From contig NZ_KB913037.1 of assembly GCF_000384295.1 (NCBI RefSeq), forward strand, positions 2,275,975-2,339,974: DNA of 64,000 nucleotides, in the 5' to 3' direction. The position numbers were made by a program, and so were the translations under genes. The stretch comes from Amycolatopsis balhimycina FH 1894 (GTDB taxonomy: Bacteria > Actinomycetota > Actinomycetes > Mycobacteriales > Pseudonocardiaceae). Positions 6,583 to 41,882 of this stretch are shown here, one piece after another. The notes under the pieces are model-generated. The model searched no databases, was not told the DNA's origin, and saw only the letters and a program-made list of their open reading frames with translations. Every line of letters starts with the position of its first letter. Position 1 is the first letter of the stretch.

Positions 6583-6860
6583 TCGGACTGGGACCCGCAG
6601 GTCACGGACTTGATCACCGCCGGCGAGGTCCCGGGCCGCTGGGCGCTGCTGGACCGCCCGCCGCTGCGGCACTGGAGTCGCGGCCGGATCACGCTGCTGG
6701 GCGATGCGGCGCACCCGATGTTCCCAGCCGCGCCCGCCGGAAGACCAATCACCTGCCCGACGGTCCCGGGCAGCAGGCGCGGGACGCCGCCCTCGCCGGG
6801 ACGGACCCGTTGGTGCGCAACGGCTGGATCTACGGCTACGACGCCGAGTTCACCCGCTGA
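6583..6860 (+). pseudogene. Remnant of an FAD-dependent aromatic monooxygenase
   Basis: Two pieces in different frames resemble the C-terminal half of salicylate/3-hydroxybenzoate hydroxylases. The first reads SDWDPQVTDLITAGEVPGRW, then RGRITLLGDAAHPMFP, which contains the FAD-binding GD motif. Around base 6740 the reading shifts to another frame, NHLPDGPGQQARDAALAG then DPLVRNGWIYGYDAEFTR and a stop at 6858-6860. The section normally between GDAAHP and the C-terminal part is missing, and nothing N-terminal is visible. It is therefore truncated, internally deleted and frameshifted. Its last 11 bases overlap the end of the convergent aldehyde dehydrogenase gene. Confidence 0.8.
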
Positions 6861-8325
6861 CTTCGACCGACGGCGCCCAACGGCGGATGTCGGCGGTGCC
6901 GGAGGGCAGCCGGATGCTCTTGCTGTAGCCGTACTCGTGCAAGGTCTCCAGCGCGACTTCACGGCCGTACCCGCTCGCGCCGACGCCACCGAACGGAGTT
7001 CCCGTAAAGGCGCGGTTGTAGTTGTTCACCATGACGAACCCGGCCCGCAGCGCCCGGCTCACGCGCAGCGCGCGCTCCGAGTCACGTGTGAACACCGCGG
7101 CCAGCAAGCCGAAGTCGGTACCGTTGGCGATGCGGACCGCTTCTTCCTCGTCACGGAACGGAATGAGCGTCACCACCGGGCCGAAGATCTCTTCCTTGGC
7201 GATACGCATGTCCGGGTGGGCGCCGGTGAACAGCGTGGGCGGAACGTAGAACCCGCCGGCCAGGCGGGGGTCGTCCGGCAGTGGCGCCTGTGCCGCGATC
7301 GTCGCACCTTCCTTGACGCCGATGTCGATGTAGTCCAGTACTCGCTTGCGCTGGGCGGCGCTGACCATCGGTCCGACATGGGTCCCGGGGTCGGCGCCGT
7401 CGCCTACGCGCAGCCGCGGCACCGCTTCGGCGTAGCGGCGGACGACCTCGTCGTGGATGTCGGCCTGGACCAGGACGCGCGACGCCGCCGTGCACGCCTC
7501 GCCCTGGTTGAAGAAGCCACCCTCGATCGCCCACGGCAGCGCGGAGTCGAGGTCCGCGTCGCCGAAGATGATGAACGGGTTCTTGCCGCCGAGCTCCATC
7601 AAGGTGGGCGTCAGGTTGTCGGCGACGGTCTTGAGGACCGCCGAGCCGGTCGCGGGCGAGCCGGTGAGCGAGATCTTTCCGACGAGCGGGTGGCCGGCCA
7701 GCGCCGCGCCGATCCGGTTGGTGCCGGGAATGATGTGCACGACGTCGTCGGGCAGGATGGACTGGATGATTTCCACGAGCCGGAGGGCGGACAGCGGCGC
7801 CTGTTCGGGTGGCTTGATCACCACCGCGTTGCCGGCGGCCAACGCCGGGGCCAGCTTGCTCGCGGTGTGGATCGGCGGCCAGTTGAACGGCACGATCGCG
7901 CCGACGACACCGTACGGCTCGAGCAGCGTGAGATCCAGGACGTTCCCTTCGTCGCGGAACTGCCCCGGCATCGCCTCGCACAGGCTCGCGAACAACTCGA
8001 AGATCCCGATCGCGGCCATGAGGTCGAACTGCCGCGCCTGCGACAGGGGCTTGCCGTTGTCGCTCGTCTCGAGCGCGGCGATCTCGTCGGCGTTCTCGCG
8101 CACTGCCTGAGCGACCGCCCGCAGCCACCGGCCTCGCTCGCGGGGCGGCCGCGCCTTCCACGAGAGGTGCGCGTCGTAGGCGGCGCGCACGGCCGAGTCG
8201 ACTTCCTTCTCACCGGCGCCCTGGACCACGGCCAACGGCGCTCCGGTCGCGGGGTTCTCGACGGTGAAGCGGTCGGCGTCCTCTTCGGACGACCATTTTG
8301 TACGGACAACATTCACTTCGGACAT
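6850..8325 (-). CDS. Aldehyde dehydrogenase (NAD(P)+)
   Basis: 491 residues from the ATG at 8325, chosen because GAAAGAGG precedes it; a longer frame lacks a site. It has the full aldehyde dehydrogenase pattern: NWPPIHTASKLAPALAAGN in the cofactor domain, LMELGGKNP with the general-base Glu, and NQGEACTAASR with the catalytic Cys. It oxidises aldehydes to carboxylic acids in the cytoplasm. It lies 13 bases downstream of a MarR gene, which itself overlaps an amidohydrolase gene, so the three probably form one operon and the enzyme may process the aldehyde product of that pathway. The substrate (vanillin-like or aliphatic) cannot be read from sequence. Confidence 0.93.
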   Translation of the reverse strand: MSEVNVVRTKWSSEEDADRFTVENPATGAPLAVVQGAGEKEVDSAVRAAYDAHLSWKARPPRERGRWLRAVAQAVRENADEIAALETSDNGKPLSQARQFDLMAAIGIFELFASLCEAMPGQFRDEGNVLDLTLLEPYGVVGAIVPFNWPPIHTASKLAPALAAGNAVVIKPPEQAPLSALRLVEIIQSILPDDVVHIIPGTNRIGAALAGHPLVGKISLTGSPATGSAVLKTVADNLTPTLMELGGKNPFIIFGDADLDSALPWAIEGGFFNQGEACTAASRVLVQADIHDEVVRRYAEAVPRLRVGDGADPGTHVGPMVSAAQRKRVLDYIDIGVKEGATIAAQAPLPDDPRLAGGFYVPPTLFTGAHPDMRIAKEEIFGPVVTLIPFRDEEEAVRIANGTDFGLLAAVFTRDSERALRVSRALRAGFVMVNNYNRAFTGTPFGGVGASGYGREVALETLHEYGYSKSIRLPSGTADIRRWAPSVEVSG

Positions 8326-8338
8326 CGTGATGCCTCTT

Positions 8339-8800
8339 TCACAGTTCGCGGGCCGCAACGGCGACCCGTCCGAGCAGAGCTCTGAGCGTTGCGGTGTCCG
8401 CGTCCCCCAGCTGCTCGGTGATCTTCTGTTCGATCTCCGCGACGACAGCGTCGGCCAGGCCCAGCACCGCGCGTCCGGCCGCGGTGAGGTGCAGCTCCTG
8501 CACCCGCCGGTGCCGGGGATGCGTCCTGCGCTCCACCTGGCCCCGCTCCTCCAGCCGATCCGCCAGCGCGGCCACCGCTTGCGGGGTGACGCCCAGGCGG
8601 CGGGCCAGCTCCGCCCCGGTCAAGCCGGGATGGGTGTGGACGGAATAGAGCAGCGAATAGTGCGCCACCGACAATCCCAGCGAGCGCAGCCGCTGTTCCT
8701 TCAGCGCCTGCATGGCCAGCTCTGCCCGTCGGAGCGCCCAGGTCACCCGGTCGGACGCACGTCTCTCACCCTCCTGTGTGGACGGGGGACCGACGTTCAC
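8339..8800 (-). CDS. MarR-family transcriptional regulator
   Basis: 153 residues with a winged helix: LTGAELARRLGVTPQAVAAL is the recognition helix region and RRTHPRHRRVQELHLTAAG the wing. The GTG start at 8800 overlaps the TGA of the upstream amidohydrolase (GTGA), implying translational coupling. MarR proteins usually repress nearby genes until a phenolic or similar ligand binds. It is a close paralogue of the MarR at 26721-27212 (both contain DRVTWALRRA and the R-HPRHR-VQELHLT segment). A palindrome at 9814-9831 upstream of the operon is a good candidate for its operator. Confidence 0.92.
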   Translation of the reverse strand: MNVGPPSTQEGERRASDRVTWALRRAELAMQALKEQRLRSLGLSVAHYSLLYSVHTHPGLTGAELARRLGVTPQAVAALADRLEERGQVERRTHPRHRRVQELHLTAAGRAVLGLADAVVAEIEQKITEQLGDADTATLRALLGRVAVAAREL

Positions 8801-9759
8801 AATCCCAGGACGCGTTCCGCGTTGCCGTGGGCGATGCGCTCCAGGTCGGCCGGGGAATAGGGCGCGGTGCGCAGGAACTCGACCGCCTCGGCACTCGACT
8901 CGAACGGGTAGTCGATCGAGAACAGCACCCGGTCGATCCCGACCGCGTGGGTGGCGCCCAGCAGCGCGGCGTGCGACATGACACCGCTGGTGGTCACGTA
9001 CACGTTGTTCCGCAGGTAGTACGAGGGCAGCTGCCGCGTCCGGTCCTCGGGTGCCACGTGCGCGTAGCGGCTGTCGAGGCGGGCCAGCTGGAACGGCAGG
9101 AGCTCCCCCATGTGCCCCAACGTCAGCGACGCGCCCGGGAACTCGTCGAACACGCCGCGGTAGATCACCCGCAGCGCGTGGGCGGCCACCGTCGCGGTCC
9201 ACCCCCACGACGGCCCGGCCAGCACGGGATGTCCCTCGAAAACCCGCCAGTTGTCGGCCGGCACCGTGCCCGGGTGCAGGTACAGCGTCACCCCGAGACG
9301 CTCGAGTTCCGCCCAAACCGGCCTGAACTGCGGCTCGTCCAGGTAGTGGCCGCGCACGTGGTCGTTGTACAGGACACCCTTGAGCCCCAGCTCCTCCACG
9401 GCCCGGCGCAGCTCCACCACCGCGGCCGCGGGGTCCTGCAACGGAAGGGCCGCGAAGCCCGCGAATCGGTCCGGGTGCTCAGCGACCGCCTTGGCCAGGT
9501 GGTCATTGACAAGCCGCGCGGCGGCGACGGCCTCTCCTGGATCGCCGATCATCTCGAGACCGGGCGAGGCCAGCGAAAGAACCTGCATGTCGACGCCGTT
9601 CGCGTCCATGTCCGCCAGCCGCAGCTCGGCGAGATCGGCCAGGCGCCGGAACCACTCCTGCGCCGTCGGACCCGGCACCGCGAAGCCCTGCCGGATCGAA
9701 CCTTCCTGTTTGATCGCCCCGGGGACCGAGAACGCTTCTTCCACAGCGATAACGCGCAC
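8797..9759 (-). CDS. Amidohydrolase-2 family protein (decarboxylase-like)
   Basis: 320 residues from a GTG at 9759 preceded by GGAGGA. The family contains metal-dependent aromatic decarboxylases (ACMSD and gamma-resorcylate type) and hydrolases. Visible features are VRVIAVEEAF at the N-terminus, LYLHPGTVPADNW, LTLGHMGELLPFQ and RVLFSIDYPFE, the last with the conserved active-site Asp. The N-terminal HxH metal pair is replaced by VEEAF, as in the resorcylate/salicylate decarboxylase branch, where Glu takes that role. It is the first gene of an operon with MarR and aldehyde dehydrogenase and is divergent from an oxidoreductase. A non-oxidative decarboxylase of a hydroxybenzoate is the best guess. 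Confidence 0.85.
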   Translation of the reverse strand: MRVIAVEEAFSVPGAIKQEGSIRQGFAVPGPTAQEWFRRLADLAELRLADMDANGVDMQVLSLASPGLEMIGDPGEAVAAARLVNDHLAKAVAEHPDRFAGFAALPLQDPAAAVVELRRAVEELGLKGVLYNDHVRGHYLDEPQFRPVWAELERLGVTLYLHPGTVPADNWRVFEGHPVLAGPSWGWTATVAAHALRVIYRGVFDEFPGASLTLGHMGELLPFQLARLDSRYAHVAPEDRTRQLPSYYLRNNVYVTTSGVMSHAALLGATHAVGIDRVLFSIDYPFESSAEAVEFLRTAPYSPADLERIAHGNAERVLGL

Positions 9760-9813
9760 AATCTCCTCCAACCTGGCCCTGCTTGCCTTCACCGTACTCA
9801 AGTACCTGTCTTG

Positions 9814-9831
9814 CATCAAGCACTTGATGCT
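9814..9831. promoter_or_regulatory. Palindromic operator candidate for MarR
   Basis: GCATCAAG - CA - CTTGATGC is a perfect 8-bp inverted repeat in the divergent gap between the amidohydrolase-MarR-aldehyde dehydrogenase operon and the oxidoreductase at 9911. Its core ATCAAG-N2-CTTGAT also occurs at 26659-26674 next to the paralogous MarR gene. A further half-site (CTCAAGTAC) lies just to the left. Confidence 0.65.
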
Positions 9832-9910
9832 AATTAACTCCTTTAGAGTGAGCAAGGTCCCGCGGACGTCCGGCCGGAATACCGGTGCAGGTCGCGGGGT
9901 TGTCGCGGAC

Positions 9911-10852
9911 ATGGCAAAAGCAGTGGTGGCCACCGGCTTCGGTGGACCGGAGAACCTGTCCCTCGTGAACCGTGAGGTCCCTCCGCCGGGACCGGGGGAA
10001 GTGACGATCGAGGTACGGGCCGCCGGGGTGAACCCGTTCGACACCAAGGTGTACAGCGGCGCGTTCGGCACCGATCCGGCGACCTTGCCGATCTCGCTCG
10101 GCGTGGAGGTCGCCGGGGTGGTCACCGCCGTCGGGGATGGGGCGACCGGCCCGGCGGGGCCGCTGAGCGTGGGAGACGAAGTCGTCGCGCGCCCGAGCGG
10201 CGGCTATGCCACCGCGGTGACCGTCAAGGCCGCCGTCGTGGTGCCGAAACCGGCCGAAGTGTCGTGGGAGGTCGCCTCCGGCCTGCTCGCGGCCGGCGGC
10301 ACCGCCGTCCACGCGCTGACGCTGCTGGATCTCAAGGAGGGTCAGACGCTGGTGGTGCACGGCGCGTCCGGCGCGGTCGGCCTTCTCGCCGTGCAGCTGG
10401 CCGTGGCCGCGGGCGTCAAGGTCGTCGGCACGGCCGGCGGCACGCGTCACGAGTTGCTGCGCCGGCACGGCGCCGTACCGGTCACCTATGGCGACGGGCT
10501 GCTCGACCGGCTGCGCGAGGCGGCGCCGTCCGGGGTGGACGGCGTGTTCGACGTCGCCGGCACCGACGAAGCCATCGACGCGTCCCTCGAGCTCGTCAGC
10601 GACCCGGCGCAGATCGTTTCGGCGGTGGCGTTCGGCCGCGCGGCCGCCGGGATCCGGCTGATCGGCGGCGGACCGGGGGCCGATCCCGGCACCGAGATCC
10701 GGGGCGAGGCGTGGCGGACGCTGCTGCCGCTCGCGGCGCAGGGACGGCTCGAACTCCCGATCGGCCGGACGTTCCCGCTGTCCGAAGCAGCGGCCGCGCA
10801 CGAGCTGGTGGCCGGCGGTCACCCCGGCGGCAAGGTCGTGCTCCTGCCCTGA
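9911..10852 (+). CDS. NADP-dependent quinone-type oxidoreductase (zinc-free MDR)
   Basis: 313 residues from ATG 9911. It is a medium-chain reductase without zinc ligands: AAGVNPFDTKVYSGAFG in the substrate domain, a nucleotide-binding motif VVHGASGAVGLLAVQLA, and a C-terminal GKVVLLP. Such enzymes reduce quinones, enones or similar substrates with NADPH. It is transcribed away from the amidohydrolase operon with the MarR palindrome in between, so it may be under the same regulator. It is related to the oxidoreductase at 44544-45446 (both have PVTYGDGL). A convergent gene follows, separated by a strong hairpin. Confidence 0.9.
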   Translation: MAKAVVATGFGGPENLSLVNREVPPPGPGEVTIEVRAAGVNPFDTKVYSGAFGTDPATLPISLGVEVAGVVTAVGDGATGPAGPLSVGDEVVARPSGGYATAVTVKAAVVVPKPAEVSWEVASGLLAAGGTAVHALTLLDLKEGQTLVVHGASGAVGLLAVQLAVAAGVKVVGTAGGTRHELLRRHGAVPVTYGDGLLDRLREAAPSGVDGVFDVAGTDEAIDASLELVSDPAQIVSAVAFGRAAAGIRLIGGGPGADPGTEIRGEAWRTLLPLAAQGRLELPIGRTFPLSEAAAAHELVAGGHPGGKVVLLP

Positions 10853-10898: not shown

Positions 10899-11747
10899 TC
10901 ACCGCTCACGGCGTGCGGTGGTGGCCAACGGCGTGGGCCCACGGTCGAGAAGATGTTTCAGGACGGTGGGATTGCCGGGATACCCGCTGCGGTCGTAGTG
11001 AGCGAACATCGTCAGCATCTCCAGCGCGGTCGGGAGGGGCAGCTCCGGCGGAAGCGGCCACTGCAAGGGCGAAACGTGCTCGGCCCGCAGGTCCACGCCG
11101 GTGGCCTGCCCGATCCGCTGGATCATCTCGCCCGCGGTCAGCCGTTCCGGCCCGGCCAGCTCGTAGCTCGCATAGACGTGCTCACCCGGCTCGGCGCAGA
11201 CCAGGCCGATGACTTCCGCCACGTCACGGAGATCGACGAGCTGGAACGACGCCGTGGGCCGGAACGGAAGCCGGACCACGCCGTCGCGAGGGGCCTGCAC
11301 GAACCGCAGCAGCGACTGCTGGTACATGGCGGGCTGCACGATCGTCCAGCCCACCGAAGACCGCCGGACCAGGCTTTCGGCATGCAGTTTGCGGACGTGG
11401 TGCGGCATGTCGGGCAGATTCGCGTGCAGCACCGAGTAGTACACGAAGTGCCCGACGTGCTCGGCTGTCACGGCACGCAGGGCGTCGGCGGTATGGGTCT
11501 CCTCGCCGGCGTCGAACGGCGGCGCGATGAACACCAGCGTGTCGCACCCGGTCACCGCCGCCCTCAGCGAGCCCGGCCCGTCGAGGTCGATGGAGACCAC
11601 GTCGTGCGCACCGGCCTCCCGGGCGGTCTCGGCGGAGCGCTCGCTGTGCACCAGGCCTCGGGTCCTGATCCCGCGCCGGGCGAGCTCGGCGACGACGTGC
11701 CGCCCCGTGTGACCGCCCGCTCCGATCACCGCAACCTGCTGTGTCAT
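10899..11747 (-). CDS. NmrA-like NAD(P)H-binding protein
   Basis: 282 residues. The Rossmann motif VAVIGAGGHTGRHV is at the N-terminus, and later segments (FVYYSVLH, WTIVQPAMYQQ, LVDLRDVAEV) are typical of NmrA/SDR-a5 proteins, which bind NAD(P) and either sense redox state or act as quinone reductases. The YxxxK pair is not obvious. Its ATG overlaps the stop of the upstream dehydrogenase (ATGA). It is the last gene of the seven-gene aromatic operon and ends at a hairpin. A reductase role in that pathway is plausible but unproven. Confidence 0.87.
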   Translation of the reverse strand: MTQQVAVIGAGGHTGRHVVAELARRGIRTRGLVHSERSAETAREAGAHDVVSIDLDGPGSLRAAVTGCDTLVFIAPPFDAGEETHTADALRAVTAEHVGHFVYYSVLHANLPDMPHHVRKLHAESLVRRSSVGWTIVQPAMYQQSLLRFVQAPRDGVVRLPFRPTASFQLVDLRDVAEVIGLVCAEPGEHVYASYELAGPERLTAGEMIQRIGQATGVDLRAEHVSPLQWPLPPELPLPTALEMLTMFAHYDRSGYPGNPTVLKHLLDRGPTPLATTARRER

Positions 11748-12868
11748 CCGGAAGCCATCCCTTCCGATGAGGGGTTGACGACGGTCATCCACATCGGCTT
11801 GTCGACGCGCTGCTGGATCGCGTCCACGGCTTTGATCGCGTCGGTGAGCGGGAACCGGTGGGTGATGAGCTCGTCGCACGCGAGGGCACCGGTCTCGAGC
11901 AACCGCAAGACCGCCCGCGTGTCGTTGCGGGTGCAGGCGCGCGTGGTGAGGAACCGCCAGCACCGCATCATCATCGCCACCGGTGGCAGCGCCAGCGGGG
12001 TGGCGTTGGCTCCCATGTGGACCAGCGAGCCGCCGGTGGCCAGTGCGGCCATCGCCTGGCCGGTGGCCGGTCCGTCCGGGATGAAGTCGATCACGGCATC
12101 GGCTCCGCCGGGCGCCAGTTCCCGCAGCCGTCCGGTCAGTGCGCCGCTCGCGGCCCAGCCTTCGGGAAGGTCGTCGAGGGCGACGAGACCGGTCGGCACG
12201 CCGGCCAGCCCGGCGACGGGCTCGAGCCGCGCACGGTCCCGGCCGACCAGGACGAGCTGCGCGATGCCGAAGTGTTCCGCGAGCTTGACGGTCGCGGTGC
12301 CCATGGTGCCGGTCGCGGCGGTCACGACGACGGTGGACCCGACCGGCAGGTCGGCGCACTTGAGCGCGCTCACCGCGTTGGCGAGGTCGTGCACCTTGGC
12401 CGCGACGTCGAAACCGACCGAGTCCGGCAGGGCGTCGATCAGCCAGTGCGGAACCCGGATGTACTCCGCGAGCCCGCCGTCGTGGTACTCCGCGTAGAGC
12501 GGCATGGCGCCCTGGCCGAGGGCCGCGTGCCCGAGCAGGGCGCTCTGGGCGCACATCATGTCGCGGTCGGTGCGGCAGTGGGCGCAGTCACGGCAGTTCA
12601 GGACCGGGTGCACCCGGACGCGGTCGCCCACGGTGCGGCCGCGCACGTCACGGCCGACGGCGGCGATGGTGCCGGCGGCTTCGTGGCCCACGGTGGTGGG
12701 CAGGTGTTTGAACACGCCCATCTGCAGCAGGCGCATGATGCCCGGAGCCAAGCCTGCCGAGGCGACTTTGACGACCACGTCGAGCGGACCGGGCTCCGGG
12801 ACGGGAACCTCTTCCAGGACCAGCGTTTCCGCGCCGCGATGGGCGCGGAGTGCGAGCATCGTGGTCAT
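11744..12868 (-). CDS. Zinc-type medium-chain alcohol dehydrogenase with altered catalytic site
   Basis: 374 residues from ATG 12868, preceded by GGAGG; the ATG overlaps the cupin stop (ATGA). The structural zinc loop is complete, CRDCAHCRTDRDMMC, and the catalytic-zinc GHE motif is present (VGHEAAG). The usual first catalytic zinc ligand, the Cys of a C-G-T/S-D motif, is absent: the position reads SAGLAPGIMRLL. The nucleotide-binding motif is TAATGTMGTATVKLA. Catalysis may therefore use other residues or differ from alcohol oxidation. Within the operon it would act on a hydroxyl or carbonyl intermediate of the ring-cleavage pathway. Confidence 0.88.
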   Translation of the reverse strand: MTTMLALRAHRGAETLVLEEVPVPEPGPLDVVVKVASAGLAPGIMRLLQMGVFKHLPTTVGHEAAGTIAAVGRDVRGRTVGDRVRVHPVLNCRDCAHCRTDRDMMCAQSALLGHAALGQGAMPLYAEYHDGGLAEYIRVPHWLIDALPDSVGFDVAAKVHDLANAVSALKCADLPVGSTVVVTAATGTMGTATVKLAEHFGIAQLVLVGRDRARLEPVAGLAGVPTGLVALDDLPEGWAASGALTGRLRELAPGGADAVIDFIPDGPATGQAMAALATGGSLVHMGANATPLALPPVAMMMRCWRFLTTRACTRNDTRAVLRLLETGALACDELITHRFPLTDAIKAVDAIQQRVDKPMWMTVVNPSSEGMASG

Positions 12869-13857
12869 GAGCAAACCTCCGCGCCGAGGGTGGCGAGCCG
12901 TTCGGGCGTGTAGGTGTCGGCGATGCGGCTGGTCTCGGCGATCTGCGGCAGTTCGCGGTGCGAGAGCAGGCTGAGGTAGGCACCGGCCTCGGTCGCGGCG
13001 CTGGCGTGGGCGATCCCGAGCGGGATGCGCACGAAGTCACCGGGCTCGAGGTCGACGACACCGCGCTGGGTGAGCAGGGTCCGGCGGCCGTGCGCCTGGT
13101 ACTGGATCTCGTCGGCGTCGAGGGTGCGCCGGTAGCGCCGCTCGCCGCCGGGGGCGACGCGCACGTGACCGAGCCGGATGCGGTCGGTCCCGTACAGCCA
13201 GGTGGTGGCCTGGCCGGGGTCGGGCCGCAGGAGCTGGATGCGGCGGCGCGCACCGTGGACGTGGCCGAGCAGCTGCTCTTCGTCGGCCGGGAAGACGGTG
13301 ATGTCGTGGCCGACCGAACCCATGCACTGGGTGATCGCCTCGTTGGCCTCCCCCGCCCGCCAGCCGGGGAACGCGGGGAACCTCGTCTGGGACTCGCGCG
13401 TGCCCGGCACCAGCTCGCTGACCGGCGCCGGAATGTAGAACAGCAGGTGGCTGTCGGCCACGCAGTAGTTGTCGTGCGCCACCCCACGGGGGATGCGGGA
13501 GAAGTCGCCGGGCCGGTGGTCGAGCACACCGAGCTCGGTCATCAGGGCACGTTCGCCGGCGATCTGGTAGGAAATCTCGTCCACGTCGCAGTTGCGGTGG
13601 TAGAACGGCTGCCGGCCCTCCAGGATCTGCCACTCGACGCGGACCTCGTCGTTCTCGTAGACACCGCGTGGCGGGGCGTACGGCAGATCCTGGTATTCCT
13701 GCGGGTAGTGCACCACCGACAACGGCGGGTGCTCACCCCACAGCTTGACCGGCACCTTCGGTGGGTGCGGAGGCGACAGAAGCAGGTGCTCGTCGCGTAC
13801 GACGCTCTGCAGAGGTTCCGCGGAACCCAGAGCGATGATGTCTTCGACTACCCGCAC
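12865..13857 (-). CDS. Bicupin protein, homogentisate dioxygenase-like
   Basis: 330 residues from a GTG at 13857 with GAGGAGG upstream. Two cupin repeats are visible. The first has FYHRNCDVDEISYQIAG and later GVAHDNY, supplying a His, acidic residue and His set that could bind iron. The second has RYRRTLDADEIQYQAHG and GIAHAS, where the first His is replaced by Arg, so it is probably structural. The HRN-DE pattern resembles homogentisate 1,2-dioxygenase, but the protein is shorter. It may be a second ring-opening or isomerising enzyme of this operon. Stop overlaps the next gene's start. Confidence 0.82.
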   Translation of the reverse strand: MRVVEDIIALGSAEPLQSVVRDEHLLLSPPHPPKVPVKLWGEHPPLSVVHYPQEYQDLPYAPPRGVYENDEVRVEWQILEGRQPFYHRNCDVDEISYQIAGERALMTELGVLDHRPGDFSRIPRGVAHDNYCVADSHLLFYIPAPVSELVPGTRESQTRFPAFPGWRAGEANEAITQCMGSVGHDITVFPADEEQLLGHVHGARRRIQLLRPDPGQATTWLYGTDRIRLGHVRVAPGGERRYRRTLDADEIQYQAHGRRTLLTQRGVVDLEPGDFVRIPLGIAHASAATEAGAYLSLLSHRELPQIAETSRIADTYTPERLATLGAEVCS

Positions 13858-13900
13858 GGGGAGGCCTCCTCGTCTCGAACTGGCATCGGCGCGATTGCCC

Positions 13901-14620
13901 TTATTTCTTCCGGCCCCAGAACATTTCGATGCCACGCCACTCGAACACGCGCGGATCGGCCACGCGGTCGCCGAAAGCGGCCCGGACCTCCTCACCCGAG
14001 TAGTACGGGATCTCGACGGGTGGGACGAACTCGAACATCTTCCGGAACCACTGGCTCAGGTGCACGTCGGCGTCGACGCGCGACTCGAAGGTCGGTCCCC
14101 GGAGGACCGCTTCGGCCAGCACGATCCGCCTTCCGGGCTTCAGGACGCGCAGGAGGTCACCGGCCGTCTCCGCCCAGTCGTCGCAATGCTGCGTGGCCTG
14201 GAGCACGGCGACGCAGTCGTAGGATTCGTCCTCGGCTCCGTCGGCGTAGTCCCACCGCCAGCACCCGCGCACTCCGTTGCGGCCCTTCGTACCGGACAGC
14301 ACGGCGCGGCGGCCGTCGAGGATGATCTCCGTCGAGTCGACCGTCCCTTCCGGACCGACGAGTGCCTGGATCTCCTTGTCCCAGCCCGCCGGACCGACGC
14401 CCTCCCCGATCAGCAGCACGCGGTCGCCGGGCCGCAGCTCCAGCAATCCGTACACGATCTCGGACACCGGCCTGGCCGGCTCGCGCCAGATGTAGGGCAG
14501 CCCGCCCGCGATCGACACCGCGAGCTCCCACTTCCGCCGCGCCTCGGGATCGCGGATCTCCGGACCCATCAGGTCCTCGTCCCAGGGCTGGATGTAGTCC
14601 CACGGGTTACCCGTCTCCAT
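13901..14620 (-). CDS. Class I methyltransferase-like protein
   Basis: 239 residues. The fold signature is seen in [15 protein letters not shown] (motif I, SAM binding), [16 protein letters not shown] (motif IV region) and [15 protein letters not shown] (motif V/VI region). It may be a SAM-dependent methyltransferase or a catalytically repurposed relative. Its position between AraC and the bicupin, with only 13 bases separating it from AraC, places it firmly in the operon. A methyltransferase is unusual in a meta-cleavage operon; O-demethylation or methyl transfer from the substrate is one possibility. GTG directly before the chosen ATG is an alternative start. Confidence 0.78.
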
Positions 14621-14633
14621 CACCTTCCACCTT

Positions 14634-15470
14634 TCATCGCAAAGTTGTTCGTCGCGTCGCCGACGGAAGTTCGCCGAAACGCTCGCGGTAGGCGGCCGCG
14701 AACCGGCCGAGATGGGTGAACCCGGCATTCAGGGCGATCACGCCCGTCTTCTGCCGGGACGCCGGCAACGCGGCACGGACCCGGTCCAGCCGGAGGTTGC
14801 GGACGTGCGTCATGGGTGACACGCCGAGGTGCTCGCGGAACGCCGCGTCGACCGTGCGCGCGCTGCGTCCCGCTGCCTGCGCGAGGTCCCCCAGCGTGAT
14901 CCGTTCGGCGAGGTGGGCCTCGATGTACTCGACGGCCCGGGCGAGGTACCGCGGACCGAAGTCTTCCGGAAGCAGCCCGGAATGCGTGTGGCGGTGCGCG
15001 AGCAGCAGGCTCGTGACGAGTGATCGCACCTCCGCCTCGCGGACGGCGGGCCGGCCCAGCAGGCCGTGCACGAGGTCGCGGATGCCCGGCCCGGTCGGCT
15101 GCGCGAGGTCGAGGGCGAGCGTGAACCGCGGATCCGTCCCGGGTTCCCGGCCGAGCAACGCGGTCAGTTCCCGCCGCACCAACCGGCGGTACAACCGGAC
15201 GACGAGCATCCCGGCCGGTCCCCCGCCGGGCCGGACCACCAGCCGCTCACCGGGGTTCACGACCGCGGCGACCGAGCGAGTGACCCGAAGCCGCTGCCCG
15301 TCCCGCTCGATGGGGAGTTCACCGAAGATTCCGAAGACCACGAGGTAGGACGATTCCCGCTGGGCCGAGGCGATCGCTTCGAGACCGAGGCCGGATGCGG
15401 CGAACCCGACGGCGAACTCGTCGTCAACGAAGCCGTGCACCGGCCGGTGAGACAACAAAGCCGAGCTCAT
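14634..15470 (-). CDS. AraC-family transcriptional regulator
   Basis: 278 residues. The N-terminal half is a ligand-sensing domain like that of NahR/XylS-type or AraC-binding-like regulators ([19 protein letters not shown]). The C-terminal half has two helix-turn-helix motifs: [20 protein letters not shown] and a second ending in [20 protein letters not shown], the AraC signature. Its ATG overlaps the dioxygenase stop (ATGA), so it is co-translated inside the operon it probably activates. Together with the divergent IclR it gives this operon two regulators. Confidence 0.92.
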
Positions 15471-16384
15471 GACGTCTTGCGCCAGCCCGGCAGCTGGCCA
15501 CCCCAGAGGTTGACGCTGCGCGGCACCGGGGTCCACCGGCGGGGCACGTAGGTGACACGGTCGTCGTGGAACTTCTCCATCTCCGCGGACAGCTCCACGT
15601 GGTTGCCGGCGGGGTCGTCGAAGAAGACGAAGAGGTTGTTGCCCGGCCCGTGCCGGCCCGGCCCCCACACGACGTCGACTTCTTCCTCGGTGAGCCGGTC
15701 GCACCAGGCCTTGAAGTCTTCCCACTGCGCCAGGTCGTAGGAGTAGTGGTCCAGTCCCGCCCGCGGGCCCCGCACGATCGCGAGCGTGTGGTGGTCGGAG
15801 TTGCTGCGCAGCCAGGCGAAACCGCCGTCGGCGAGCTGGTCCGAGATGCGGAATCCGGCCACCCCGGTGTAGAACGCGGCCATCCTGGCGACGTCGGTCG
15901 TGGCGAGCGTGACGTGCTGGTACTTGATCGGCCGCCGCCCGGTGTCCGCGGCGTGCTCACCCGAGCGCCGCACCGGACCGTGGAAGTGCACCGTGGTGCC
16001 GTCCGGGTCGGTGCACACCAATCCGGACGGCTCGGCCACGGCCTCGTCCACGAAGGACTCGTCCAACCGGGACACCGGGTGACCGGCTTCGCGAAGCCGC
16101 TTCTCCAGTGCGTCCAAGCCGCCAGGGTCGGCGATCTCGAAAGCGATGTGGTCCACCGCCGGTTCGCCGGGCAGCAGATCGATGACGTGGTGCCCGCGGC
16201 CCCAGCCGAGCCGCGCGCCGCCGCCCGAGAGCTCCGCCTGCGGTTCCATGCCGAGCACGCGGCAGTAGAACTCGCTGCACGCGGCGACATCGGGCACCCG
16301 CAGGCCGAGGTGTGACGTGGCGGTCCTGCGCAACGTCCCAGCGGTTTCCGGTTCGGGCAGGGTGACCCGTTCTTGGTGTGGCAC
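15467..16384 (-). CDS. Extradiol ring-cleavage dioxygenase (VOC type)
   Basis: 305 residues from a GTG at 16384 with AAAGGAA upstream. It has two vicinal-oxygen-chelate repeats. In the C-terminal, catalytic repeat the Fe(II) ligands of the type I extradiol family can be placed: His in KYQHVTLATTD, His in GLDHYSYDL and Glu in NHVELSAEMEK. Such enzymes open catechols next to the two hydroxyls (meta cleavage). It follows the flavin hydroxylase by 16 bases, so the hydroxylase probably makes its catechol. 2,3-dihydroxybiphenyl- or catechol-type substrates are possible. Confidence 0.92.
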   Translation of the reverse strand: MPHQERVTLPEPETAGTLRRTATSHLGLRVPDVAACSEFYCRVLGMEPQAELSGGGARLGWGRGHHVIDLLPGEPAVDHIAFEIADPGGLDALEKRLREAGHPVSRLDESFVDEAVAEPSGLVCTDPDGTTVHFHGPVRRSGEHAADTGRRPIKYQHVTLATTDVARMAAFYTGVAGFRISDQLADGGFAWLRSNSDHHTLAIVRGPRAGLDHYSYDLAQWEDFKAWCDRLTEEEVDVVWGPGRHGPGNNLFVFFDDPAGNHVELSAEMEKFHDDRVTYVPRRWTPVPRSVNLWGGQLPGWRKTS

Positions 16385-16400
16385 GTCCGTTCCTTTCGTG

Positions 16401-17969
16401 TTACGCGGCCGCCGTCGCGGGCCGCGCGGCCAGGTGCAAAGCAGTGAGGTCGGGTGCCTGACCGGCCGGCCACGTGGCAGCGACGAACCGATCCGGACGA
16501 AGCAGCACGAGCCGGCCCCGGTAGGCGGCGAACTCCTCGTCCAGACGGCCGTCGAGATCGATCAACGCGGTGAAGTCGCCGGCCGCGGGCATGCGGTCGT
16601 CGACCGGCACCTGCACCAGCGACGGTGACAGCACGGCCACCGATTCGGCCGCGCGGCGCACGTCGGCCGGGCCCACTCCGACACCCACCAGCGCCCAGCC
16701 CGGGCCGAGCGCGTCGTCCAGCAGCCGGATCCGCCTGCTGCCGGTGTCGAACACCCGTGGTTGCCCGACCGTCACCCCGACCAGCTCGCGTGGCCCCGAG
16801 AGCAGGCCGTCGGTGTAGACGTGGGGCGGGCGGAAGCGCATCTGCTCGAAGAACGAACGCCCCGCGTCGGTCTCCACCGCGGCGCCGATCAGCCGATCCC
16901 GGTGCCGTGCCAGGCGCGGGCGGGTCGTCATCACGATCCGGCCCAGGCGCTCCGACAGCCGCACGGTGGCTTCCGCGTGCGGTCGCCGTTCGGTCTCGTA
17001 GGTGTCCAAAGCGGACTCCGCCAGCCGACCGGCCAGCACATCGGTGATCTTCCACGCGAGGTTCGCGGCATCCCGGATGCCGGAGTTGAGGCCCTGACCG
17101 GCGAAGGGCGGCATCATGTGGGCCGCGTCGCCGAGCAGGAAGGTGCCGCCCACGCGCCAGCGGTCGGCAACCACGGCGTGGAACCGGTAGGTGACCAGTC
17201 GTTCGACCTGCGCGGGGGTGACCTCCCGGTAGGGCGCCAGCAACCGGCGCACCAAGCCGAGGTCCGGTCGCACGCCCGGTTCGCCTTCGCCCGGCCGCAG
17301 CAGGAACTCATACCGGCAGCGCCCGTCCCGCCCGGGGATGATGACGTGCGGGCGATCCGGGTCGCCGTGGTGCATCCCGTAGCGCTCGTCGTGCCGGTCG
17401 CCGAGCAGGTCGGCCACCAGCCACGCGTCGCCGTAGCTGCGGCCGGTCATGCCGATGCCCAGCTGTTCCCGGACGGTCGAGCGGCCCCCGTCGCACCCAA
17501 GCACGAAGCGGGCTCGCACCGGTCCTCGCGTGGTCTGCAGCTCGACACCGTCGGCGTCTTGTGCCAGCGCCGTGACGGCGGTCCCCAGATGCAGCGTGAC
17601 ATTCGGCCGGGCGCGCAGGTGCGCCGCGAGTTCGCGTTCCAGGTCCGGCTGTGCGAACGGGTTCTTGGACGGGTAGCCGAACCGGCACGGCTGGGCCGCC
17701 CGCGTCTGGAACACCGGCCGTCCGGTGGCGTCGTAGTAGCGGGTCCCCGTGCCGGGCACGATGATCTTCAGGATGCAGTCGGCCAGCCCGGCCCACTGAT
17801 AGACCCGCAACGACTCGTCGTCGATGCTGATCGCCTTGGGCTCGTCGCTGGTCCGGGTGCGGCGTTCGAGCACGGTCACCCGGACACCGCGCGCGGCGAG
17901 CAGCGCGGCCGCCGTCATCCCGACCGGTCCGGCGCCCACGACCACGACGTCGCTGTCCTGCCTGCCCAC
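16401..17969 (-). CDS. FAD-dependent aromatic hydroxylase (MhpA/PheA type)
   Basis: 522 residues from a GTG at 17969 (AGAAGGGA upstream). It is a group A flavin monooxygenase: VVVVGAGPVGMTAAALLAARG at the start, the DG motif region in VLGCDGGRSTVREQLG, and GTFLLGDAAHMMPPFAGQG with GLNSGIRDAANLAWK. The C-terminal thioredoxin-like domain marks the MhpA/phenol hydroxylase group. These add an ortho hydroxyl to phenolic acids or phenols using NAD(P)H and O2. It is the first gene of the operon, divergent from IclR, and feeds the extradiol dioxygenase. Confidence 0.92.
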   Translation of the reverse strand: MGRQDSDVVVVGAGPVGMTAAALLAARGVRVTVLERRTRTSDEPKAISIDDESLRVYQWAGLADCILKIIVPGTGTRYYDATGRPVFQTRAAQPCRFGYPSKNPFAQPDLERELAAHLRARPNVTLHLGTAVTALAQDADGVELQTTRGPVRARFVLGCDGGRSTVREQLGIGMTGRSYGDAWLVADLLGDRHDERYGMHHGDPDRPHVIIPGRDGRCRYEFLLRPGEGEPGVRPDLGLVRRLLAPYREVTPAQVERLVTYRFHAVVADRWRVGGTFLLGDAAHMMPPFAGQGLNSGIRDAANLAWKITDVLAGRLAESALDTYETERRPHAEATVRLSERLGRIVMTTRPRLARHRDRLIGAAVETDAGRSFFEQMRFRPPHVYTDGLLSGPRELVGVTVGQPRVFDTGSRRIRLLDDALGPGWALVGVGVGPADVRRAAESVAVLSPSLVQVPVDDRMPAAGDFTALIDLDGRLDEEFAAYRGRLVLLRPDRFVAATWPAGQAPDLTALHLAARPATAAA

Positions 17970-18029
17970 ACGTTGTCCCTTCTCCGACAGCCTGGTTTCC
18001 CGTTCCGGCGATCTCAGCCTCAGGCTATG

Positions 18030-18067
18030 GTCCTGTTTTATGAAACACAAGTCCTGTTTTACAGGAC
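18030..18067. promoter_or_regulatory. IclR operator candidate: repeated GTCCTGTTTTA with palindromes
   Basis: The 155-base gap between the hydroxylase operon and IclR holds GTCCTGTTTTA twice (18030-18040 and 18051-18061), 21 bases or two helical turns apart. The first is followed by TGAAACA, making TGTTT-N4-AAACA; the second forms GTCCTGT-TTT-ACAGGAC. This arrangement fits IclR-type operators. Confidence 0.65.
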
Positions 18068-18124
18068 AAACCCGAGGTGCGGCCGAGTACACCGGTGCCG
18101 GCCGTTTCGGTTAGGTTGTCGGGT

Positions 18125-18919
18125 ATGACAGGGGATTCGGCGCGCTCCGGCAGCACCTACCGGGAACGCAACTCCACAGCGGACAAAGCGCTGGACATCC
18201 TCATGATGTTCGACGACCAGCACCTGGCACTGTCCGCGGCGGACGTCGCCCGGCAGCTGGGCGTCGCCCGCTCGACCGCGTACCGCTACCTGCAAAGCCT
18301 CGTCGGCACCCAATTCCTCGAAGAAGCCGACACCGGGGGCTACCGCCTCGGCAGCCGAGTACTCGAGCTGGCACGGCTGGCCCGCCGCGGGCTCGGTCTC
18401 TCCGAAGCGGCGCGGCCGGTCATGCGACGGCTCGCCGCCGACGTCGGCGAAGTCGTCCTGCTCACCCGCCTCGCCGGCGCCGCGGTGATCTGCCTGGAAC
18501 GAGAGGACGCCGCCGCCCGCGCGGTCCGCATTTCCTACGAGCGCGGCGAAGTCCTCCCGATCAACGCCGGCGCGGCGGCCCACGTCCTGCTCGCCTGGCT
18601 GCCCCAGGAGCAGATCGACGCGGTGCTGGCCGGTGTGCGGTTCCCCGCCTTCACCGAACGCACCCTCACCACCAAGCGCGACCTCGCGCGCCGGCTGACC
18701 GAGACCCGCAAGCTCGGCTACGCGGCCAGCCGCGGCGAACTCGACCCGGACGTCCTCGGCGTCGCCGCCCCGATCCGCGACGAGAACGACGCCGTCGTGG
18801 CGGCCGTCAGCATCGCCGGGGTCTCCGCCCGCGTTCCCGACAGCCGGCTTCCCGCGCTCGCCGAAGCCGTCCGCGACGCCGCAACCGAAATCAGCGCGAC
18901 ACTGGCCCTGCGCGGCTGA
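18125..18919 (+). CDS. IclR-family transcriptional regulator
   Basis: 264 residues from ATG 18125. The N-terminal winged helix is visible in KALDILMMFDD and LSAADVARQLGVARSTAYRY, followed by the IclR effector domain (LTRLAGAAVICLERE, INAGAAAHVLLAWL, LGVAAPIRDE). Family members bind small organic acids or aromatics. It is transcribed away from the seven-gene aromatic operon, with repeated palindromic sites in the gap, so it most likely controls that operon and itself. Confidence 0.93.
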   Translation: MTGDSARSGSTYRERNSTADKALDILMMFDDQHLALSAADVARQLGVARSTAYRYLQSLVGTQFLEEADTGGYRLGSRVLELARLARRGLGLSEAARPVMRRLAADVGEVVLLTRLAGAAVICLEREDAAARAVRISYERGEVLPINAGAAAHVLLAWLPQEQIDAVLAGVRFPAFTERTLTTKRDLARRLTETRKLGYAASRGELDPDVLGVAAPIRDENDAVVAAVSIAGVSARVPDSRLPALAEAVRDAATEISATLALRG

Positions 18920-32997: not shown

Positions 32998-33693
32998 TCA
33001 AAGCCATCCCGGCAGCGGGGGCAGGTCCGGCCGCGGCACCCGGCCGGTCACCCAGCCGACGAGCTCGGCCGCGCGCCCGCGGGCCGTCGCGCCCGGATCA
33101 CCGGCGCCGAGCCGCCAGGAAGTATGCCGGTCCACCGGAGCGACCGTGACCGGCGGGCAGCCGTCCTTTCCGGACAGATTTGCGCAGACGTCGTCCAGCA
33201 GCAGATCCACGACACGGTCCGGGATTTCGTCGAAAACCGTGTCGTCCCCGAGGTCGGCCGCGTGCAGCCACACCTCCCGGATCCGCATCCACGGCACCTC
33301 CGCGGCCGGGATCGTGCGGCCCAGCGCACTGCGGACCTGAGCTGTCCACCCCTCGGGTGCCAGCCGGTCAAGTTCGCTGTCGAGCCGTTCCGCGCTGTCC
33401 ACAAGAAACGCTCGCAGCTCCGGCGGCGGCAGGACTGCAGACTCCTCGATCTCGGCCACCCGCTGGGAGCGGTCGGCGTACATCGGGGTTTCCACACCCG
33501 TCCGGGCCCACGTCGCGAGCCGCGCCAGTGCTTCCGCGTTGCGGGCCACGTGCCCGACGACGTGCGCCTTGCTCCACCCCGGCAGCCGGCTGTCCCTCCG
33601 GAAGTCACTGTCCGAAAGAGACTCGACGACAGCGAGGAAGTGTTTCGTGCCTTCGCGCACCCACGGCAGCGTCAGGGAGACTTCGTGCTTCAT
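32998..33693 (-). CDS. Mycothiol-dependent maleylpyruvate isomerase family protein
   Basis: 231 residues. The DinB-like N-terminal domain has LPGWSKAHVVGHVARNAEAL, where the His residues belong to the metal site, and IREVWLHAADLGDD supplies further ligands; the C-terminal part (SAERGR-like WRLGAGDPGATARGRAAELV) is the SCP-2-like domain of this family. It isomerises maleylpyruvate to fumarylpyruvate using mycothiol. Being last in an operon with gentisate dioxygenase and a fumarylpyruvate hydrolase-like gene, that substrate assignment is strong. ATG overlaps the ligase stop (ATGA). Confidence 0.9.
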   Translation of the reverse strand: MKHEVSLTLPWVREGTKHFLAVVESLSDSDFRRDSRLPGWSKAHVVGHVARNAEALARLATWARTGVETPMYADRSQRVAEIEESAVLPPPELRAFLVDSAERLDSELDRLAPEGWTAQVRSALGRTIPAAEVPWMRIREVWLHAADLGDDTVFDEIPDRVVDLLLDDVCANLSGKDGCPPVTVAPVDRHTSWRLGAGDPGATARGRAAELVGWVTGRVPRPDLPPLPGWL

Positions 33694-35333
33694 GCGGTCA
33701 CCCGGGCAGCGATGTCGGCGCGCAGCGCCTTCTTGTCGATCTTGCCCACCTTCGTCGACACCAGCTCGTCGACCAGCACCAGGTGCTCGGGCAGCTTGAA
33801 CCGGGCGACCCCACGCCCTTCCATGGCCGCCCGGATCTCCTCGAGCGTCACGGTGGCGCCGGGCCGCGGGACGACGTAAAGGCAGACGCGTTCGCCGAGC
33901 ACCGGGTCGGGCATCGCGACCGCGGCGACCTGGCTGACCGCGGGAAGCTGGTAGACGAGATTTTCGACCTCTTCGGCCGAGACCTTCTCGCCACCCCGGT
34001 TGATCATGTCCTTGTCCCGGCCTTCGACGATCAGGTTCCCGTCCGGGGTCATCCGGCAGATGTCGCCGGAGCGGTACCAGCCGTCGGCGGTGAAGGCGCG
34101 AGCGTTCTGCTCGGCGGCCTTGTAGTAGCCGCGCGGCGTGTAGGGCCCGCGGGTGAGCAGCGAGCCGGGCGCACCGGGTGGGACGTCCTGGTCGAGCTCG
34201 TCGACCAGCCGGATCTCGTCGGCCGGGCTCAGCGGGCGGCCCTGGGTAGTGCAGACGATTTCGTCCGGGTCGTCGAGCCGCGTGTAGTTCAGCAGTCCTT
34301 CGGCCATCCCGAACACCTGCTGCAGCGTCGCGCCGAGGACGGGCTTGACGCGGCGGGCGAGCTCGTCGGCCAGCCGGGCGCCGCCGACCTGCAGCACCCG
34401 CAGGCTCGCGAGGTCCCCGGCGCCATTTTCGACGGCGTGCTCCAGCCAGCGGCCCGCGACGGCCGGGACGACCGCGGTGTGCGTGACGCCCTCCGCCGCG
34501 ATCGTGGCGAAGACGCGCGCGGGCTCGGGCGAGGGCAGCATGACGACCGTGCCGCCGGCCAGCAGGGTGCCGAGGATTCCCGGGCAGGCCAGCGGGAAGT
34601 TGTGCCCGGCGGGCAGGCTCACCAAGTACCCGGTGTCGCCGTCCATCCCGGCGACTTCGGCGGACGCCATGGCGTTGTAGGCGTAGTCGTCGTGGGTGCG
34701 GGCGATCAACTTGGGCAGCCCGGTGGTTCCGCCCGAAAGCAGGAAGACCGCGACGTCCCGGCTGTCCGGTGCCGGGGGTACGACCGCCTCGCCGGGGCCG
34801 CAGAGCGCGCGCAGGTCGATGCTGTCCGGCCGGAGGTCGGTGCCAGCGACGAGGACGTGCCAGGGGCCTTCGACATCGGCGGCCAGCTCGTGGGCGAGCG
34901 CCTGGTGGTCGAAGTCGCGCAGCCGGTCGGGCACCGCGATGGCCGCGGCTTCGGCGTGCCGGGCCAGGTAGCTCAGCTCGTGGCGGCGGTGGGCGGGCAG
35001 CGCCATCACCGGCACGATCCCGGCCCGCAGGCAGGCGAGGGTGAGCACGACGAACTCCCAGCCGTTGCCGAGCTGCACGACGATCCGGTCCCCGGCGGCC
35101 AGGCCGAGGCCGAGCAGCCGAGCCGCGGCGGCGTCGGCCCGCCCGGCGAGTTCGGCGTGGGTGAGGCGGGTGCCGTCGGCCGCGTCGACCACGGCAGTGG
35201 CGCCGGGAACGCGATCGGCGACGTCGCGGAGGAGGTGACCGAGCGGGCTACCGCGCCAGTAGCCGTCGGCGGCGAACCGGGCGGCGTCCTCCTCGGGCCA
35301 GGGCACGGTGTGCTCACTGATCGGGGTGGGCAT
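33690..35333 (-). CDS. sdgA: Aryl-adenylating ligase, salicylyl-AMP ligase-like (DhbE/SdgA type)
   Basis: 547 residues. Adenylation motifs: FLLSGGTTGLPKLIARTH (A3), LQQVFGMAEGLLNYTRLDD (A5), WYRSGDICRMTPDG (A7), VEGRDKDMINRGGEKVSAEE (A8) and the A10 Lys in TKVGKIDKKAL. The close likeness to 2,3-dihydroxybenzoate- and salicylate-AMP ligases, starting with TPISEHTVPWPEEDAARFAADGYW-type N-terminus, points to salicylate. No carrier domain is attached or nearby, so the AMP ester is probably passed to CoA rather than a siderophore synthetase. AAGGAGG precedes ATG 35333; the start overlaps the preceding gene by 20 bases. Gene symbol by analogy with the Streptomyces sdg pathway. Confidence 0.88.
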   Translation of the reverse strand: MPTPISEHTVPWPEEDAARFAADGYWRGSPLGHLLRDVADRVPGATAVVDAADGTRLTHAELAGRADAAAARLLGLGLAAGDRIVVQLGNGWEFVVLTLACLRAGIVPVMALPAHRRHELSYLARHAEAAAIAVPDRLRDFDHQALAHELAADVEGPWHVLVAGTDLRPDSIDLRALCGPGEAVVPPAPDSRDVAVFLLSGGTTGLPKLIARTHDDYAYNAMASAEVAGMDGDTGYLVSLPAGHNFPLACPGILGTLLAGGTVVMLPSPEPARVFATIAAEGVTHTAVVPAVAGRWLEHAVENGAGDLASLRVLQVGGARLADELARRVKPVLGATLQQVFGMAEGLLNYTRLDDPDEIVCTTQGRPLSPADEIRLVDELDQDVPPGAPGSLLTRGPYTPRGYYKAAEQNARAFTADGWYRSGDICRMTPDGNLIVEGRDKDMINRGGEKVSAEEVENLVYQLPAVSQVAAVAMPDPVLGERVCLYVVPRPGATVTLEEIRAAMEGRGVARFKLPEHLVLVDELVSTKVGKIDKKALRADIAARVTA

Positions 35334-37374: not shown

Positions 37375-37390
37375 GTGAGGCTCTCCATCG

Positions 37391-41822: not shown

Positions 41823-41882
41823 CCGTGCCTCCCGCCCAAACATGTATCACTGATCTGACGCTCGTGGGAATTTAGCATCACT

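Follow-up and report, generated by a model that had tools for sequence, protein, structure and literature searches.

In the isoflavone catabolism (ifc) pathway of Variovorax, as the accessible part of its description has it, a group A flavoprotein monooxygenase is followed by a glyoxalase-type extradiol dioxygenase and then by a cupin on the ring-cleavage product; the cupins IfcD1 and IfcD2 act after IfcA and IfcB, on a pyranone (PMC11069340). The fde naringenin pathway of Herbaspirillum seropedicae, in the passages of its description available to us, uses a flavin adenine dinucleotide (FAD) monooxygenase and an extradiol dioxygenase to open the A ring (PMC11069340, PMC8552027, PMC11303751), and the accessible account of the Mhq pathway of Burkholderia SFA1 names 2-methylhydroquinone, trihydroxytoluene, and 2,4,6-trioxoheptanoate as intermediates (PMC8571283). 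Here, we analyze a partly similar aromatic catabolic operon in a 64,000-nucleotide stretch of Amycolatopsis balhimycina FH 1894 (bases 2275975 to 2339974 of the 10.86-Mb single-contig genome), a stretch that we call the window.

The operon runs on the minus strand from position 17969 to position 10899 and encodes, in order, a flavin hydroxylase, an extradiol dioxygenase, an AraC-family regulator, a methyltransferase-like (MT-like) protein, a bicupin, a medium-chain dehydrogenase/reductase (MDR), and an NmrA-like protein; an IclR gene diverges from the operon at 18125 to 18919 (plus strand). Gene calls and Pfam and NCBIfam matches agree with the initial annotation, which had been made from the bare sequence, on the seven minus-strand genes and the opposing IclR gene, on their classes, and on the AraC gene being embedded in the operon. 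All operon reading frames are intact, and the operon is real. The initial annotation counted four ATGA junctions; there are three in-frame four-base overlaps of this kind, at extradiol/AraC (15470), bicupin/MDR (12868), and MDR/NmrA (11747). The MT-like gene, whose start is 14623 or 14620, is read in a different frame from a further ATGA found at the AraC stop (about 14637); this ATGA may be the source of the higher count. Spacers of 16 and 43 bases separate the hydroxylase from the extradiol gene and the MT-like from the bicupin gene, respectively.

The initial annotation of an operon for aromatic catabolism, its substrate unassigned, is supported; a literature search turned up related pathways and no paper that describes this gene set or assigns it a substrate. 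We propose, and give slightly better than an even chance to, an IclR-controlled meta-cleavage operon of mosaic origin for a dihydroxybenzene-type phenol, with an FAA hydrolase acting in trans. The operon would be under IclR control, presumably induced by the phenol. The predicted substrate is a ring of the dihydroxybenzene type (hydroquinone- or resorcinol-type), which the flavin hydroxylase would hydroxylate at a position ortho to a hydroxyl group already present. The product, a catechol or trihydroxybenzene, would be opened by the extradiol dioxygenase, a member of the vicinal oxygen chelate (VOC) group, giving a beta-dicarbonyl compound for cleavage by the FAA-fold hydrolase of a paralogous locus. 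Once the ring is open, the bicupin and the MDR would carry the product further; the model here is IfcD1 and IfcD2, which offer the closest precedent for the position of the bicupin in the pathway. A neighboring decarboxylase may supply a decarboxylated dihydroxybenzoate.

The upper enzymes are consistent with such a route. The hydroxylase passes the NCBIfam subfamily model NF004829 (411.1 bits; cutoff, 390) and falls under the cutoff of the equivalog model NF004831 (457.9 versus 546). The extradiol dioxygenase has Glyoxalase domains and full-length matches to solved extradiol enzymes, of which the nearest, 3b59, bears only the name glyoxalase/dioxygenase. Candidate His-His-Glu ligands (QH.TL, DHYSYDL, and NH.ELSAEM), at what we take to be the ligand positions of a type I extradiol dioxygenase, are present in 8 of 8 aligned rows, and ring cleavage is the predicted activity. 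The MDR was first described as a dehydrogenase without the catalytic-zinc Cys, and this is borne out: AG[LV]A[PT]G replaces the motif that presumably bears this Cys in zinc alcohol dehydrogenases in 23 of 23 aligned rows, while the four structural Cys residues are retained. As the Cys is missing throughout the alignment, its absence is a trait of the subfamily, which is perhaps one of reductases.

Comparison with relatives reveals how the operon is assembled. Within the family, the bicupin occurs in 13 of 297 genomes, our own included, at 14 places, and 12 flanks were fetched (all but our own locus and a second place in G060). Genes in fetched loci were called by a simple open reading frame choice based on GC content, which is rough, and matches had to cover at least half of the query. 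Of these 12 flanks, 8 have hydroxylase homologues (57 to 68% identity; threshold, at least 55%), 6 have extradiol homologues (at least 60%), and 8 have IclR homologues (54 to 59%); MDR, class II aldolase-type, and NMT1-like matches occur in 10, 9, and 6, respectively, and MT-like matches in none. Three flanks (L046, L051, and L052) hold what we call the sister operon, in which an IclR gene is followed by a divergent series for hydroxylase, extradiol dioxygenase, FAA hydrolase, NMT1/TAXI-like protein, bicupin, and MDR, in that order. L046 is from the window's genus and L051 and L052 share another, so the sister operons amount to about two independent cases. The window operon has the same IclR, operator, hydroxylase, extradiol, bicupin, and MDR components in the same order except in the middle, where AraC and MT-like genes stand instead of those for the FAA hydrolase and the NMT1/TAXI-like protein. 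A class II aldolase-type gene lies near the sister operon, whose flanks contain no MT-like, AraC, or NmrA match, and a literature search turned up no description of it. The NMT1/TAXI-like proteins (L052 8544-9506 and homologues) are encoded between the FAA hydrolase and the bicupin. Folds related to these proteins include decarboxylases, so in catabolic operons they may be enzymes rather than transporters.

The lower half of the operon recurs elsewhere. Half of the MT-like loci (14 of 28) have a bicupin gene adjoining the MT-like gene, together with MDR in 13 and NmrA in 11 of the 14 (L009 ends with its contig; L093 and L094 repeat L005 and L011 and are counted once). These Streptomyces-type loci (L005 to L018) carry an MT-like-bicupin-MDR-NmrA cassette with up to four genes in window order at 39 to 78% identity. 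They differ in having a PF21274-type hydroxylase and a short VOC protein, in many cases with SnoaL_4 and FAA hydrolase genes, and in their regulators, which are of the TetR type, with at most a distant IclR (31 to 35%). With a different hydroxylase and VOC protein beside it, the cassette is separable from the upper block. In trees (rows at 42% identity for the bicupin, 45% for the MDR, and 75% length), the window bicupin and MDR group with MT-linked Streptomyces rows (89/92 and 92/89, respectively); these rows form one group, so the 14 loci represent approximately one origin plus transfers. Among loci fetched, the window hydroxylase and extradiol dioxygenase are nearest to those of L047 (68% and 78%).

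Judged by these similarities, the operon is a mosaic in which an IclR-hydroxylase-extradiol block like that of family relatives is joined, via AraC, to the MT-like-bicupin-MDR-NmrA cassette of Streptomyces. The initial annotation, which suggested a search for co-occurrence, had matched the exact gene set to no described pathway. Co-occurrence is strong in both halves (bicupin with MT-like in 14/28 loci; with hydroxylase, extradiol, and IclR in 8/12, 6/12, and 8/12 family flanks), and the idea of a unique set is not supported, in view of the two conserved blocks and the sister operon in three relatives from two genera. The exact seven-gene order is in no other fetched locus. In one Streptomyces locus (L016 14452-14691), a stretch 55% identical to residues 4 to 79 of the window AraC protein directly follows NmrA of the cassette.

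Related sets also occur at greater distance. Plasmid pGal_C110 of Phaeobacter gallaeciensis (L079) has hydroxylase, FAA hydrolase, VOC, IclR, bicupin, and MDR genes together, along with genes for two TAXI-type proteins, a class II aldolase, and a dienelactone hydrolase, and with an adjacent 3-hydroxybenzoate/gentisate cluster. The hydroxylase-VOC-FAA hydrolase core is found on plasmids of other phyla, in Variovorax (L081 and L105), Aminobacter (L082), and Phaeobacter (L079); L105, judged by its annotation, has no annotated cupin gene. An ABM-domain gene is present at four family loci and in Phaeobacter, and WrbA is present in Aminobacter. Like the quinone-oxidoreductase-like gene beside the window operon, they are in keeping with quinol chemistry and prove nothing.

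The initial annotation also found the usual lower-pathway hydrolase, hydratase, and aldolase to be absent. None is in the operon, and to that extent the statement stands; the absence is weakened by a hydrolase homologue in a paralogous locus that has the same palindrome as the window operon. This locus (about G000:C1:1.05 Mb), 1.24 Mb from the window operon, encodes a hydroxylase with 56% identity to that of the window operon, an IclR (60%), and an FAA hydrolase 60 to 63% identical to that of the relatives' operons, so that supply of this enzyme in trans is plausible, albeit not proven. Upstream are lignostilbene-dioxygenase-like and aldehyde dehydrogenase genes; the locus also contains a short VOC-like frame on the other strand. 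An HsaA-like monooxygenase gene is also there (L075, G000:C1:1043000-1062900), and the locus perhaps serves a pathway for stilbenoids or lignin fragments. FAA-family matches in the genome number 16; two of them are overlapping pieces of one broken stretch (G000:C1:1004463-1005108, one piece with an internal stop) that is probably a pseudogene. The sole DmpG-type aldolase match in the genome is at 10.08 Mb, near an acetaldehyde-dehydrogenase homologue.

A candidate operator lies between the hydroxylase and IclR genes, where three half-sites, GTCCTG-15-GTCCTG-5-CAGGAC, occupy 18030 to 18067. A like layout (palindrome, 11 to 12 of 12; third half-site, 5 to 6 of 6) recurs between IclR and hydroxylase genes in L046, L051, and L052 and upstream of the bicupin gene in L047 and L048. 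Where the third half-site matches at only 4/6 positions, the layout also appears at the start of the FAA hydrolase gene in L053 and L054 and of the IclR gene in L047. Among 100 random 20-kb sequences, of which the three best sites each were considered, none combined a palindrome matching at 11/12 or better with a third half-site matching at 5/6 or better, and 11 had a palindrome of that quality alone. Operator scans found no second copy within the window. In the genome, the exact palindrome has two places, window 18051-18067 and G000:C1:1053424-1053440, both at IclR genes, in loci whose hydroxylases are homologous. We infer that IclR binds the candidate operator; the recurring operator-like sequence makes the regulon of the operon family traceable.

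Several observations weigh against the proposed reading. The palindrome count in the genome equals that of a backward control (2 forward and 2 reverse each), so the count is no evidence and only placement argues, and the third half-site at the second locus matches at only 2/6 positions. Among the relatives, the L051 2514 site (11/12, 5/6) is near no recognized gene, as are the weaker sites in L055 and L095, bar one of the five in L095, which precedes an FAA hydrolase gene; L004, L049, L050, L056, and L057 have no site at the same threshold. The paralogous locus, with its own IclR and hydroxylase, could serve another substrate, and it also carries the lignostilbene-dioxygenase-like gene. The decisive forks of the bicupin and MDR trees are not starred, and the cassette of the Streptomyces-type loci has another hydroxylase (PF21274) and a short VOC protein next to it. 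The bicupin and MDR may form a separate, merely co-regulated branch, and there is no substrate evidence of any kind.

An alternative is a promoter shared by two unrelated pathways, with the hydroxylase and extradiol dioxygenase acting on one phenol and the MT-like-bicupin-MDR-NmrA cassette on another compound. The Streptomyces cassette lacks this hydroxylase/extradiol pair, and Arthrobacter combines hydroxylase, extradiol, FAA hydrolase, and IclR genes with an MT-like gene while the bicupin is missing. However, in several relatives the bicupin and MDR genes share an operon, or a similar operator, with the hydroxylase, extradiol, and FAA hydrolase genes, and Phaeobacter likewise has these gene classes together; we consider two pathways unlikely. 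Somewhat less likely still is a flavonoid or plant-polyphenol A-ring pathway of the fde/ifc kind that leaves a smaller aromatic acid for a gentisate-type operon at about 33 to 42 kb of the window. The ifc system has like enzyme classes (a group A monooxygenase, a glyoxalase-type extradiol dioxygenase, and two cupins, in the accessible description; PMC11069340), and genes resembling that of gentisate dioxygenase neighbor both the cassette, in 6 of 14 Streptomyces-type loci, and the Phaeobacter set. Nevertheless, fde and ifc are comparable here by enzyme class only, the ifc cupins being described, in the part of the account available, merely as of the cupin superfamily, and the operon yielded no glycosidase gene and none specific to flavonoids. 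Decay into a dead-end pathway, by loss of the FAA hydrolase and NMT1-like genes present in the sister operon (the sole other NMT1-like match in the genome is 29% identical), is highly improbable given intact frames, three overlapping junctions, a complete operator, and a close FAA hydrolase in trans.

For the bicupin, the initially noted likeness to homogentisate dioxygenase is upheld by structure comparison of a predicted model: the top four entries by Z score are all homogentisate 1,2-dioxygenases (HGDs; 19.9, 19.8, 19.4, and 18.7), with the next at 16.6. In Foldseek E-value order, a quercetinase and an oxalate decarboxylase come first, and HGD ranks 21st. A sequence search of solved structures gave nothing significant (best E value, 0.12), a profile search gave an E value of 0.0025, and identity to HGD is 13%. 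The sole complete candidate metal site is that of the N-terminal cupin (H87/E94/H128). Over 120 listed homologues (of 488 found) plus the window protein, the second cupin has Arg 243 as the counterpart of H87 in 106 of 121 rows, E250 in 117, and H284 in 103, with any His at 238 to 248 in only 4; alignment A2 comprises 28 of the 120 plus the window protein. This arrangement, with the second site incomplete, may differ from that of HGD, whose catalytic ligands we take to lie in the C-terminal cupin, in the motifs YHRN...E and SHGPD. Both motifs are located in the C-terminal part of the HGD in L089, one of two genomes of the same order (L089 and L090) whose proteins were used for comparison; a search of the A. 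balhimycina genome for the HGD family PF04209 gave no match. Both bicupin halves best match the HGD N-terminal cupin by sequence, and the domain pairing is thus not firm. The Phaeobacter bicupin has homologues of about 48 to 52% identity in fungi (Exophiala, Talaromyces, Oidiodendron, and others), which suggests that the bicupin is old or was transferred.

The MT-like protein has the Rossmann-like fold of class I S-adenosylmethionine (SAM) methyltransferases. Its family does not keep GxGxG, which we take as motif I of this class: across 120 listed homologues (of 208 found) plus the window protein, the first G is present in 120 of 121 rows, the second in 81, and the third in 36. The window protein itself reads GEGVG, and RebM and MitM, for comparison, show GCGIG and GCGVG. 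Position 98, after strand 2, is E in 117 and D in 4 of the 121 rows; an acidic residue here is presumably the ribose contact. Alignment A1 comprises 31 of the 120 plus the window protein. Members accompany several kinds of ring-cleavage cluster, and the gene is found with either half of the operon alone, cassette or upper block (the genes of the 28 MT-like loci were scanned by family in part). For instance, Arthrobacter L004 has it with hydroxylase, extradiol, FAA hydrolase, and IclR genes and without a bicupin. Only 1 of 72,556 plasmid records, from Streptomyces, has an MT-like match.

Taking both proteins together, the MT-like family might be enzymes of the class I methyltransferase fold that have lost methyl transfer and perform a non-methylating step (decarboxylation, hydrolysis, or tautomerization) on extradiol products; in this operon, the MT-like gene would have taken the place of the NMT1/TAXI-like gene (and the class II aldolase-type gene) found next to the same bicupin-MDR pair in relatives, and the HGD-fold bicupin, active through its N-terminal cupin, would process the opened ring. 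We regard this joint reading as doubtful. NMT1-like or class II aldolase-type genes occur at none of the 14 MT-linked bicupin loci (L009 covers only 3 kb), at least one of them occurs at 9 of 12 bicupin loci without an MT-like gene, and neither type has a match within the window; this mutual exclusion hints weakly at replacement. If MT-like proteins do not use SAM, "methyltransferases" beside ring-cleavage genes need reannotation. The sequences of the MT-like and bicupin families fit poorly with their automatic names.

Beyond the operon, genes at 6850 to 10852 (Table 1) are closely matched by genes near the cassette in some of the Streptomyces-type loci; the match to the amidohydrolase (80 to 81%) is found in 6 of 14. 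The amidohydrolase matches 2dvt full length (residues 8 to 322). Of the 2dvt metal ligands, which we take to be E8, H10, H164, and D287, the counterparts of E, H164, and D287 are present in the alignment, and that of H10 is Ala. Farther along, the gentisate-type operon (32998 to 40895, minus strand), with a PaaX regulator gene at 41004 to 41843 (minus strand), encodes a mycothiol maleylpyruvate isomerase domain protein, an aryl-acid AMP ligase (DHB-AMP-ligase-like), a salicylyl-CoA 5-hydroxylase-like FAD enzyme, an FAA hydrolase, and a gentisate-dioxygenase-like cupin, all under NCBIfam equivalog cutoffs.

Table 1. Features of the operon and its surroundings, in window coordinates
Feature	Position	Strand	Evidence
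Group A flavin hydroxylase (MhpA-like), first operon gene	16401-17969	-	Pfam FAD_binding_3 2.2e-66; NF004829
Type I (VOC) two-domain extradiol dioxygenase	15467-16384	-	Closest PDB chain 3b59, E 1.7e-32
AraC-family regulator, overlaps extradiol gene	14634-15470	-	Pfam HTH_18 and AraC_binding_2
MT-like protein, class I fold, degenerate SAM motif I; start perhaps 14623	13901-14620	-	
Bicupin, HGD-like fold; candidate metal site H87/E94/H128, N-terminal cupin	12865-13857	-	
MDR dehydrogenase/reductase without catalytic Cys, structural Cys4 present	11744-12868	-	23-row alignment
NmrA-like NAD(P)-binding protein, last operon gene	10899-11747	-	Pfam NmrA 6.3e-26
Candidate IclR operator, GTCCTG-15-GTCCTG-5-CAGGAC	18030-18067	+	
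Divergent IclR regulator; start perhaps further upstream	18125-18919	+	Pfam IclR_C 5.8e-38
Quinone-oxidoreductase-like MDR	9911-10852	+	56-59% homologues near Streptomyces-type cassette, 4 loci
Amidohydrolase-type decarboxylase (gamma-resorcylate/5-carboxyvanillate decarboxylase-like)	8797-9771	-	2dvt E 1.2e-69
MarR-type regulator, 4-base GTGA overlap with amidohydrolase gene	8339-8800	-	71% homologues in L010, L015
Aldehyde dehydrogenase	6850-8325	-	80-81% homologues in L011, L012

The window operon thus belongs to a meta-cleavage operon family found here in actinobacteria and one alphaproteobacterium, for which a literature search turned up no substrate or description and of which two enzymes merit biochemical work. 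Among described routes, 4-hydroxypyridine catabolism was considered and rejected, its ring-cleaving enzyme being of the amidohydrolase family according to the accessible text (PMC7356986). Classical mhp and dmp pathways share the MhpA-like hydroxylase and type I extradiol dioxygenase with the window operon; unlike them, it has no hydratase, aldolase, or acetaldehyde dehydrogenase gene within 10899 to 18919. For the Mhq pathway, the intermediates are said to follow one another in the order listed at the outset, and MhqA and MhqB are reportedly of the fitting enzyme classes. These intermediates suit a hydroxylase, an extradiol dioxygenase, and a hydrolase, whereas the available part of the description, by which alone it is compared, mentions no bicupin or MT-like gene (PMC8571283). 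In the fde pathway, FdeE is said, in the passage available, to work with the Rieske protein FdeD (PMC8552027), and the window operon has no such gene. The ifc pathway, also compared by description only, differs in that its accessible account mentions no MT-like, MDR, or NmrA gene (PMC11069340). By analogy, the predicted sequence of hydroxylation, extradiol cleavage, and FAA-type hydrolysis would fit trihydroxybenzene pathways, as in Mhq and in the A-ring cleavage of fde and ifc.

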